Assembly: GCA_030607575.1 (NCBI GenBank)
Contig: JAUWJS010000004.1
Span: 1-55,328, forward strand
Direction of reading: 5' to 3'
DNA length: 55,328 nucleotides
Source of the DNA: Candidatus Heimdallarchaeota archaeon
GTDB lineage: Archaea; Asgardarchaeota; Heimdallarchaeia; Heimdallarchaeales; Heimdallarchaeaceae
Of this stretch, positions 1 to 3,243 are shown in pieces; within the stretch, counting starts at the first letter, position 1; each line of letters starts with the position of its first letter. The position numbers and the translations under genes were made by a program. The notes under the pieces were generated by a model. It was not told the DNA's origin and made no database searches. It was given only the letters and a program-made list of their open reading frames with translations.

Positions 1-959
1 CACCAGAACTCCACCTTCTCCGCCACTCTCGGATACACTTTCAAATCCTTCTCCTTGAATATCGCTTGAGTAGATCTCTTAGCATCAATGATTCTTTTCG
101 TATTATTTTCGTAGTATACAACCATTTCAGGTTGAATCCATGCCTGTTCTGCAATATCAGGAGTATCAATCTTAGGTTTCCACTCCCAATCTAAACCTTC
201 TAACAAAACCTCAGCAATCTCTTTACACAATTCCTCCCATTTGTAAGCAGTAGTCCTAGTAAACCAACATGCTTCAGCTTCTTTGTGTCTATACAAATGA
301 CTGGGGTCAGCAAATCCTCTTCCGCAGTCCTCACAAGCAAAAGGTTTCTCATCAGTATGCACAGCTATGATATGTAATTTAAGACCTCGAGCATGAGGAA
401 ACGATGAATCGCATTCTTCACAAGCATAAGGACGATGATTCCGATGAACAACTTTAACATGATCATTTAGATGACTACGAAGCTTAAAGGTAAAACCACA
501 TTCTTCACAAACATATTTACGTTGGTTTGTGTGAATAGCAATAATATGCTCCTTCAAGTGTTGTGGTAGCTTAAAAGTATCTCCACATTCTTTACAAACG
601 TGGGGACGGAGATTTTGATGAACTGATTTAATATGTCGTTCTAGATTATCTTTTCGTGGAAACTCATCATCACAGAGAGAGCATTTGAAAGTTCTATCTT
701 TATTATGAACAGAATTAATATGACGTTTCAGTGAGGCAAGTTGAGTAAAAGATTCCTTACAAATCTCACAATTATACTTAATACCAAGATGTTTTTCTTG
801 TATGTGTCTACCAAAAATATCTTTGCGTTTAGTAGAAAAAGAACAATGAGGACACTCAAAAGGTTTTGTTGAAGAATGAACAGAATCTTGATGACGTTTA
901 AGATTAGATCTACGAGTAAATGTTTTTCCACATTGATTACACTCAAACTTTGTGCTCAT
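1..959 (-). CDS. C2H2 zinc-finger protein with C-terminal PD-(D/E)XK-like nuclease domain, truncated by window edge
   Basis: Translation from ATG at 957-959 stays open to the window edge, giving 319 residues without a stop, so the C-terminus is missing. Eight C2H2 fingers fill roughly residues 7-240 (C-x2-C, then H-x4-H; for example CNQCGKTF and CEECGFTF); the last ends H...C rather than H...H. After the fingers comes a non-finger domain with PE at 277-278, a short hydrophobic stretch, and DAK at 292-294 (RIIDAKRS). This matches the spacing and chemistry of a PD-(D/E)XK nuclease core, though only two motifs are visible. The start lies 3 bases after the TAA of the upstream finger gene and in the same frame, so both are likely co-transcribed. 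Inference: a sequence-specific DNA-binding protein with nuclease or nuclease-derived function. The finger part is certain; the nuclease reading is moderate. No overlapping alternative frame shows protein-like composition. Confidence 0.85.
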   Translation of the reverse strand, partial: MSTKFECNQCGKTFTRRSNLKRHQDSVHSSTKPFECPHCSFSTKRKDIFGRHIQEKHLGIKYNCEICKESFTQLASLKRHINSVHNKDRTFKCSLCDDEFPRKDNLERHIKSVHQNLRPHVCKECGDTFKLPQHLKEHIIAIHTNQRKYVCEECGFTFKLRSHLNDHVKVVHRNHRPYACEECDSSFPHARGLKLHIIAVHTDEKPFACEDCGRGFADPSHLYRHKEAEACWFTRTTAYKWEELCKEIAEVLLEGLDWEWKPKIDTPDIAEQAWIQPEMVVYYENNTKRIIDAKRSTQAIFKEKDLKVYPRVAEKVEFW

Positions 960-962
960 CTT

Positions 963-1412
963 TTAGTCTTCCTTTGCAAAGTGTATTAGTTTCATGTGAT
1001 CCTTCAGATGGTGAGGTAGTTTGAAAGCTTCTTTACAAATTTCGCAGATATGGGGTCTAATATTCTGATGAACACCTCTAATATGTCTTTGTAGGCTATC
1101 CTTTCTCTTGAATGAAGCATCACATTGTGGACATTCAAAACTCGAAGATTGGTTATGTATTGTTACTCGATGCCTATTTAGATGAGACTGTTGCTGAAAT
1201 TCTTCCCCACAATAATTACAACTAAACATTCTTTGATGTTCATGAACTTGTTTAATATGACGATTGAGATTGTCTTTTCGGGAGGTTGTAAAATCACACA
1301 ATTCACATGAACGAACGTTTTTTGATTTGTGTACGGAACTAATGTGTCTATTCAATGAATCTTTTCTTGTAAAAGTTTTATTACATTTATCACAAGAAAA
1401 CATGTCACTCAT
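963..1412 (-). CDS. five-finger C2H2 zinc-finger protein
   Basis: A 149-residue protein consisting almost only of five C2H2 fingers (CDKCNKTF, CELCDFTT, CNYCGEEF, CPQCDASF, CEICKEAF), each closed by H-x4-H. It starts MSDMFSCDKC, closely parallel to the MSTKFECNQC start of the downstream gene, which suggests duplication of a finger gene. It ends in TAA at 963-965; the next gene begins two codons later in the same frame, so the pair could be read as one long finger protein with an in-frame stop. A TATA-like element at 1441-1449 lies about 30-37 bases before the ATG, which would give a nearly leaderless transcript. Predicted DNA or RNA binding; the target is unknown. Confidence 0.88.
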   Translation of the reverse strand: MSDMFSCDKCNKTFTRKDSLNRHISSVHKSKNVRSCELCDFTTSRKDNLNRHIKQVHEHQRMFSCNYCGEEFQQQSHLNRHRVTIHNQSSSFECPQCDASFKRKDSLQRHIRGVHQNIRPHICEICKEAFKLPHHLKDHMKLIHFAKED

Positions 1413-1504: not shown

Positions 1505-2248
1505 TTACATTCTACGACCGCGTCTGCCTCCCTTCCTCCTACATCCATCGTGTGGGAGAGGTGTCACATCTTCTAGTCTTAATATTCTCATCCCTGACCT
1601 CTTTAGCGCTCTTAATGCTGCTTGTGTTCCTGGTCCAGGTGTTCTGTTCTTATGTCCTCCTGGTGCCCTATAACGTACATACAGCTGATATATTCCTTTA
1701 CTTTGCGCCTCTTGTGCTGCTGAGTTTGCTGCTTTCATTGCTGCATATGGACTTGATTCATTTCTGTCTGCTTTAACAAACATTCCTCCACTTTTACGGC
1801 TGAATGTTTCAGCACCTGAAATGTCGGTGATATGAACGATGGTATCATTGTAACTGGAAAAGATATGAGCAACACCGTATTTAGAATCTCTTCTTCTGGT
1901 TCTAGATCTAGCTTCAGTTTCAGATTTCTCTTCAGATTTCTCTTCAGATTTAGCCTTTTCTTCAGGTTTAGCTTCTTCTTTGGTTTTAGATTTTTCTTTT
2001 TTAGGAGCTTCAGGTTCTTCTTTCTTGGGTTTAGCTTCATCCTTGGCTTTTTTATCTTTAGTCTCTTTAGGTTTCTTTGGTTCGGCTTTCTTTTCTTCTT
2101 TAGGAGGTTCTGTTTTTTCTTGTTTCTTAGTAGTGGAGGTTTTCTTCTCTTTCTTTGGAGCTTCAACTTTCTCTTCTACTTTAGGAGTTTCAACGTCTCC
2201 CTTAGTTTTCTTAGCCGATTCTTTCTTTTCTTTTTTATCTTCACTCAT
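1505..2248 (-). CDS. rps11: 30S ribosomal protein uS11 with long charged N-terminal extension
   Basis: Residues about 121-247 are a full-length uS11 ([47 protein letters not shown]), the platform protein of the small subunit that contacts the 3' region of 16S rRNA. The first ~120 residues are an added low-complexity region made of Lys, Glu, Pro and Ala, about doubling the usual length of ~130 residues. The ATG at 2248 has GGTGAT a few bases upstream, and the frame is open throughout, so the extension appears genuinely encoded. It is the last gene of the uS13-uS4-uS11 group, 8 bases after uS4; rpoD, which often follows in archaea, is not here. Confidence 0.97.
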
Positions 2249-2256
2249 AAAATCAC

Positions 2257-3243
2257 CTACTTATCTTCCTCCTTACTTTTGGCTAACAAATTCTTAGCCT
2301 CTTTGTTCATAGCTTCAGCAGTGGCAGGACCAATACCTGGGACCTTGGAAAGATCTTCAACTGTAGCTTTAGCAATTTTATCGACTGTGTTGAAACCATT
2401 TTCTTTGAGAAGCATTGCTGTTTTAGTACCAATACCCTTAATCGATGAAATGTCATCTTTTGGTGTAATTGGCTTTTTCTCTGCAGGTTTCTTAACAGGA
2501 AGTTTTTCCGTTGGTGCAGCTTCGGGTGCTGCTTTAGGTACTTCCTTGACTTCAGCTTTAGGTACACCCTTGACTTCAGCTTTAGGTACATCCTTGACTT
2601 CAGCTTTAGGTACATCCTTGACTTCAGGTTTAACTTCAGGTTTAACTTCAGGTTTAACTTCAGGTTTAGGCTTTCCTCTACCCTTTGGACTTTCTTTCTT
2701 TTCAGGAGGTTCTTCAACTTGAGTTGGTGGTGCTTGTGGTCTTGAAGGATGATCTTGTTTAACTAAAGGAGAACTTGGTGCATAAGCAATATGTTCTTCA
2801 TCATCTATCTTCACTAGCATTCCAGGAGAAGTAACTACTGCACTATTTAGAGCGATATGTCTATGTGCAATAAATTGTCTTGCTTGATAGGGAGAAGATG
2901 CTAAACCTTTCCTAAAGACAACTGTTTGTAATCTGCGGTTTAGTACTGTTTTAACATTCAAAGCTAGAACAGAATCGAGATCCCCACCTTGGGGAAGCAT
3001 ACCCAAACGAGTTAAACGGGATAACAATTCAGTTGCCCTTTGTTCTCTAATTTCAGGTGTTAGTGCTAGAAGAGCACGAGCTTGTTGTCGAGCTTTTGAT
3101 AATAAAGTTCTAGCTTTCCATAATTCTTTCTTGTTTCGTAATCCATACTCACCAACTAATGGTAACTCTCGTTCAATTCGATCTTTGTCATAAGGATGAC
3201 CTGGTGTTAGAATTTTCTTTTTATATCTTCGTATTCCACCCAT
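2257..3243 (-). CDS. rps4: 30S ribosomal protein uS4 with C-terminal helix-hairpin-helix extension
   Basis: Residues 1-~165 are archaeal uS4 ([19 protein letters not shown], then the S4 RNA-binding domain around [18 protein letters not shown]), a primary 16S rRNA binder and assembly initiator. The protein is 328 residues, against roughly 160-180 for the family. The extra part is a Lys/Pro/Glu/Val linker with PEVK and DVPKAEVK repeats (about residues 170-250) followed by a terminal helix-hairpin-helix unit ([12 protein letters not shown] and [12 protein letters not shown]). Such HhH tails bind nucleic acid non-specifically and occur on some archaeal ribosomal proteins, but not normally on uS4. 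Second gene of its operon. Confidence 0.96.
2532..2670 (-). repeat. in-frame tandem repeats in the uS4 linker
   Basis: Two nested repeat types are visible. A 24-base unit encoding (D/G/E)VPKAEVK occurs about four times, and a 12-base unit encoding PEVK occurs four times. Both are multiples of three, so they change linker length without breaking the frame. They arise by slippage within coding sequence and are not a CRISPR array. Confidence 0.85.

Follow-up and report, generated by a model that had tools for sequence, protein, structure and literature searches.

A zinc-finger nuclease-like gene beside ribosomal protein uS11 in Heimdallarchaeota: a probable free-standing homing element with a finger-only partner

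Zinc-finger nucleases are familiar as products of human design. A gene at the edge of an archaeal contig that joins an array of zinc fingers to a domain with nuclease motifs raises the question of which DNA such a natural protein would read and to what end. The earlier note on this locus had proposed defence, mobile-element control or recombination; the evidence from the window (the whole stretch of 55,328 nucleotides that was analysed) and from relatives taken from records named Candidatus Heimdallarchaeota favours a narrower role, that of a homing element acting on the adjoining gene for ribosomal protein uS11 and accompanied by a zinc-finger self-protection partner. The coordinates of the features discussed are collected in Table 1.

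Table 1. Features of the locus, in window coordinates
Feature	Position	Strand	Basis or remark
Zinc-finger nuclease gene	3..959	-	319 aa, ATG start, frame open at contig edge
PD-(D/E)XK-like nuclease domain	3..281	-	E242, P277-E278, D292-A-K294; motif conservation
Eight-finger array of the nuclease gene	282..959	-	Pfam matches and contact residues
Paralogue with five C2H2 fingers and no nuclease domain (finger-only; proposed shield/immunity protein)	963..1412	-	Fingers and self match
Ribosomal protein uS11 gene, proposed target	1505..2248	-	Conserved sequence and synteny
Inferred cut/insertion boundary	1534..1535	.	5-6 nt beyond the F8 triplet; homology with L026, L027, L030, L032
24-bp sequence predicted to be read by the nuclease array (5'-F8...F1-3')	1540..1563	+	Antisense to uS11 codons TPLPHDGC(R)
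15-bp site predicted for the finger-only protein, within the nuclease site	1549..1563	+	Rank 1 of 110,628
uS4 gene	2257..3243	-	

The contig end removes the last part of the nuclease frame, and the missing C-terminus, the recovery of which had been recommended, was read in relatives and adds just ~60 residues. Full-length orthologous frames of ~380-398 aa are present in most genomes of the genus, and dN/dS lies between 0.02 and 0.3 in each part of the gene wherever dS is computable; the ORF is therefore not a chance reading frame. Purifying selection acts on the fingers, the nuclease domain and the finger-only ORF (dN/dS 0.13-0.23 for the last). Four relatives (L036, L037, L033, L038) have eight-finger nuclease frames without an ATG ahead of finger 1, where GTG and TTG are the only candidate starts. 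Pfam matches the window ORF to PF13465 (E 6e-40) and PF00096 (E 2e-38). The number of eight fingers given in the earlier note stands, their description as uniformly C2H2 does not, as seven are C2H2 and the eighth is of the C2HC type (...HKEAEAC). The contact residues at positions -1, +2, +3 and +6 are, from F1 to F8, RSNR, RDIR, QASR, RDNR, LQHE, LSHD, HRGL and DSHR.

The C-terminal domain carries PE at residues 277-278 and DAK at 292-294, just where these had been noticed before, and in addition a conserved E at residue 242. The motifs E, P[DE] and [DE]xK are retained in 8/8 diverse relatives, down to ~21% identity; in the alignment of the eight members E16, P51 and K68 are invariant and columns 52 and 66 hold D or E, so that the motif I Glu, the P(D/E) and the (D/E)xK of the PD-(D/E)XK superfamily occur in their proper order. 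Weak Pfam matches over the motif region include RmuC, LlaJI, VRR_NUC and DUF790, which we take to be members of the PD-(D/E)XK clan, along with further, unrelated sub-threshold families. The structure prediction suggested earlier was performed twice with AF2, using two alignments, and gave models with pLDDT values of 50 and 56, too low for use, in which the order of elements is helix-strand-strand-helix-strand (the superfamily core is αβββαβ). Foldseek returned only meaningless matches for the better model, PDB sequence profile searches with the domain gave no match, and hhalign produced no alignment with the Heimdallarchaeal Hjc, a real PD-(D/E)XK family, probably because both profiles are thin. 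The nuclease reading thus rests on the motifs, since structure prediction and profile searches gave no confirmation of the fold: of the PD-(D/E)XK-like domain proposed in the earlier note, the motifs hold in all eight relatives and the fold is unconfirmed. The conservation of these motifs supports the proposal of a natural zinc-finger-nuclease-like architecture. The FokI cleavage domain had no match in the Pfam or PDB sequence searches.

Most genomes of the genus carry the domain, and a search of 228 genomes of the phylum brought three convincing cases beyond the genus, all within its class; two further weak matches outside the genus were lost when a more diverse profile was used. It is joined to arrays of several kinds, namely TGEKP-linked C2H2 fingers (L021, L020), DUF4379/PF14311 treble-clef repeats (L022, L023, L025, L068) and homing-endonuclease-associated repeats PF18780 (L070). 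The first two of these loci show archaeal C2H2 arrays with eukaryote-style HTGEKP linkers. The loci L074, L075, L076 and L077 carry DUF4379 treble-clef arrays of five or more repeats on the same domain, and at L070 / L078:2130-3845 (G011:C64) the domain stands behind a PF18780-like repeat array. A 484-aa frame (L062, G043:C5) has an N-terminal region, the nuclease motifs as PDF...VEAK and no zinc fingers.

In the orthologous neighbourhoods examined, uS11 is followed immediately, on its 3' side and in the same orientation, by the nuclease gene; uS4 and uS13 precede uS11 on that strand where the contig extends far enough. The uS11 of the window has a Lys/Glu-rich N-terminal extension of ~120 aa and uS4 a long repetitive C-terminal extension, and the lengths of both vary widely among relatives. 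Read by a Zif268-type code, F1-F4 specify GNG GNA GNG GNG, in antisense ACN CCN CTN CCN C, the codons for T-P-L-P-H of uS11; F5 and F6 agree with CRT CRT at the His and Asp/Asn codons, F7 with ANC at Gly and F8 with NRC at Cys/Arg. In all eight fingers the middle base sits on a wobble position of uS11. The +3 residue is variable in F1, F2, F3, F4 and F7, which face the Thr, Pro, Leu, Pro and Gly codons with fourfold wobble, and is His in F5, F6 and F8, which face the His, Asp/Asn and Cys codons with a Y wobble. The variability at +3 thus follows fourfold versus twofold wobble, the wobble tolerance expected of a homing endonuclease. Among the orthologues the -1 contacts are near-invariant and +6 is more conserved than the surrounding positions. 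A rapidly diversifying, PRDM9-like specificity was considered and rejected on these grounds, as only the +3 residues at fourfold wobble vary freely.

When each array was scanned with its own textbook matrix, the uS11 site was the top 24-mer in 12/16 loci and ranked 3 of 110,610 in the window, where 64/40,320 permutations of the finger order score equally or better on the site; with a genus-consensus matrix it ranked 1 in 16/16 related loci and 2 in the window. The 16 loci are mostly orthologous, the species are related and the recognition code is approximate, and the uS11 scan was not blind because the match of F1-F4 had been noticed beforehand. The predicted, code-based recognition site is long and lies in a conserved gene adjoining the endonuclease gene, as is characteristic of homing. 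A genome-wide count of GNGGNAGNGGNG gave no enrichment over the reversed control, so there is no repeat family of sites; the count revealed copies at the uS11 end.

A paralogous array offers a blind case. In a scan of 19.5 kb, the top match of the L021 array (G011) fell within the adjoining gene for a fixX-type ferredoxin, with a score of 17.7 against 12.7 for the next. At this site the wobble bases fall under +6 contacts. The fixX site scores 17.2 in the carrier and 20.3-22.6 in the non-carriers G000, G012, G005 and G008; the carrier has CLECATC where most relatives have CLECGTC, with the Ala codon GCC in place of a Gly codon GGN, which changes the base under the Arg of F4. A decayed, stop-containing nuclease remnant lies beside fixX in G013. 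No target was found for the G055 array, one gene flank of which lies off the contig, and the fingers of the G063 array give no clear target match.

Comparison of alleles with and without the elements suggests how they may be inserted. Relative to G012, G011 has a complete fixX, the nuclease gene, another ORF and then a displaced second fixX 3' end that runs colinearly into the next gene; the duplication is 86% identical over 88 bp. At uS11, G017 has no element and an intact gene, and its alignment with G012 reveals an insertion of ~2.3 kb together with a duplicated uS11 3' end. Element-less alleles with contiguous flanks are therefore at hand for both targets (G017 for uS11, G012 for fixX). 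In L026, L027, L030 and L032 the displaced uS11 3' ends start at offset +30/31, and in the fixX and uS11 cases alike the duplication begins within ~6 bp of the F8/nuclease edge, though the site orientations are opposite. A treble-clef nuclease in G008, the copy of which has an in-frame stop, is flanked by a 96-bp duplication of the 5' end of a PIG-L deacetylase gene. The complete hybrid target and displaced native end that mark gene-end-replacing mobile ORFs are thus found at fixX, at uS11 and at the PIG-L 5' end. No flanking duplication was seen at the treble-clef loci L074 and L075 or at the HNH-repeat locus L078. Variable genes separate the nuclease gene from the displaced uS11 end or flank the two (L026:2525-3445, L032:6518-8995, L027:2914-3411, L037:2245-3111), with Pfam matches to YaaC-like, TPR, HIT and PLD-like families; no methyltransferase, the companion expected in restriction-modification, was found among the neighbour proteins tested in Pfam. 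L028 carries two short uS11 3'-end repeats (2621, 3453), which suggests repeated insertions.

The finger-only paralogue appears to read the same site in a different manner. In the window its array scores 24.2 at the uS11 site and 16.3 at the next best, and in 9/9 loci the top rank of such an array goes to the uS11 site of its own genome. The finger-only arrays agree with that site at 19/19 strong +3 contacts, F1-F4 of the nuclease arrays at 0/16. When five representatives that differ in site state are paired in every way, the true pairing of finger-only array and site is the sole best of 120. At degenerate positions, nuclease residues with a strong preference match their own uS11 site in 2/30 cases versus 9.0 expected (P 0.0007, uncorrected for phylogeny), and the Leu codon is TTR in 7/8 genomes without the finger-only ORF and CTN in 8/9 genomes with it (Fisher P 0.003), P values that overstate independence since the species are related. 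TTR breaks the F2 contact; in the exceptional L039, which has TTG, F2 of the finger-only protein carries Lys in place of Arg at +6. The carrier allele would thus be protected from its own enzyme, as judged by predicted affinity only. One carrier falls outside the self-protection model: L035 lacks a finger-only ORF, and its CTN site is intact and scores well with its own array.

Drawing on features read directly from the sequences (the architecture, conservation and position of the gene, the code match and wobble alignment, the duplications, the element-less alleles, the self match of the finger-only protein and the self mismatch of the nuclease), we consider it very probable that the locus is a free-standing homing element with a natural zinc-finger nuclease and a finger-only shield, for which binding, cutting, homing and masking are predicted activities. 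The eight fingers would recognise, in antisense, ~24 bp within the conserved 3' part of the uS11 coding sequence, and the PD-(D/E)XK-like domain would cut just past finger 8. An element-less uS11 allele would be cut and repaired from the carrier allele, the element being copied in. The element would bring or duplicate the end of the target gene, so that uS11 stays whole, and the displaced native end would remain on the far side. As recognition would lie on non-wobble positions and be loose at the wobble, the alleles of related species would remain targets. The carrier could be spared by two routes: the wobble bases of its own uS11 mismatch the fingers of its own nuclease and, in many carriers, the finger-only paralogue, tuned to the self allele, would mask the site. 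The distances of the nuclease correlate with those of the flanking genes (Mantel r 0.70 and 0.53; weaker for fingers 1-4, 0.37 and 0.22), which suggests that inheritance of the uS11 element is at present largely vertical. G017 may represent a loss rather than a never-invaded allele, and retention of the element may reflect harm from losing the shield or recurrent homing. Unlike a selfish gene in pure decay, the elements are long-lived and evolve under purifying selection.

Other functions were weighed against this reading. The self/non-self logic at wobble bases and the long-term retention would also suit anti-element defence or exclusion, in which the nuclease cuts incoming foreign uS11 3' ends, whether borne by rival integrative elements or by segments of a foreign chromosome, while the shield leaves self untouched; the genes adjoining the element include one for a YaaC-like protein, and this and the repeated uS11 3' ends downstream point the same way. 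However, neither viral contigs, queried with the domain and with its alignment, nor phage records, queried by tblastn, yielded a relative, the PHROGs search gave no convincing match, and neither did PADLOC, its two single-member hits being to unrelated models (best E 4.5e-5). Target-end duplication and element-less alleles are, moreover, the mark of homing, and defence as the main role is unlikely, though both roles can coexist. Similarly unlikely is a regulator of the ribosomal operon, with zinc-finger proteins that bind inside uS11 and a nuclease-like domain that is regulatory or dead. The constant position after uS11, the vertical inheritance, the purifying selection and the predicted preference of the finger-only protein for its own site would all accord with regulation, but the catalytic-type residues are invariant in a diverse alignment, the nuclease array mismatches its own site, the paralogues act alike at fixX, leaving displaced gene ends, and the alleles without the element retain an intact uS11.

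The code matches and duplications could also be artefacts of chance or shared ancestry around an ordinary zinc-finger protein of unrelated function, given the approximate code and the largely orthologous loci. The independent top match at fixX, the 19/19 self matches over five site states with the true pairing as sole best of 120, and the empty alleles with duplications at two unrelated genes make this extremely improbable.

The homing element, as preferred here, probably also embodies a two-array self/non-self system, in which the nuclease is tuned away from its own allele and the masker tracks synonymous wobble bases. Such a system would pair a natural zinc-finger nuclease with a code-matched antidote, in a broader Asgard family where one nuclease domain is combined in turn with C2H2, treble-clef or homing-repeat arrays. 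The shield, if true, would give homing elements a novel means of leaving their carrier unharmed, with two zinc-finger arrays that evolve in contrary directions at synonymous bases of an essential gene for a ribosomal protein. The findings place eukaryote-style C2H2 arrays, some of them TGEKP-linked, in a clear functional setting in Asgard archaea and offer a natural nuclease domain and a code-matched blocker to genome-engineering research. Since the target is readable from the protein and can be checked against the adjoining gene, binding, cutting and self-protection are directly testable.

Phrase searches of 5.39 million open papers found no natural or native zinc-finger nuclease or zinc-finger homing endonuclease by name, and no paper that linked Heimdallarchaeota to C2H2 fingers; a published account of mobile elements in Heimdallarchaeum refers to an rRNA-type homing endonuclease and not to zinc fingers (PMC8813620). 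Engineered zinc-finger nucleases, which are FokI fusions, share with the present protein a C2H2 array, a C-terminal nuclease domain and a code-readable target, whereas the latter is natural, could not be related to FokI through the libraries searched, seems to use a single 24-bp site and has an array-only partner. I-Ssp6803I is intron-encoded and is not known to have a zinc-finger array. It represents the PD-(D/E)XK homing endonucleases, one of six families (PMC3943268), and shares the homing-type logic and the class of catalytic motif, while no sequence similarity of the present domain to any PDB chain was detected. The LAGLIDADG enzyme I-AniI recognises its site promiscuously where the host gene has its wobble positions (PMC3943268); the wobble alignment is thus shared, but the fold differs, and the pattern shows there in the tolerance of substitutions and here in a modular finger code.

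We know of no array-type self-protection protein for the free-standing homing endonucleases of T4-like phages. These intronless enzymes (reviewed in PMC2988022) likewise lie outside introns and inteins and adjoin their targets, but belong to other nuclease families and phage hosts. Mobile ORFs with C-terminal replacement are found in fungal mitochondria, in Glomus at atp6, atp9, cox2 and nad3 (Beaudet et al. 2013, PMC3630166, where an Allomyces precedent is cited), and there too an endonuclease gene stands at the end of a conserved gene, a replacement end is brought and the displaced native end lies downstream. Those elements are mitochondrial and encode LAGLIDADG or GIY-YIG enzymes, whereas the present one joins a zinc-finger array to a PD-(D/E)XK-like domain on an archaeal chromosome, has a finger-only partner and has one relative that duplicates a 5' end.
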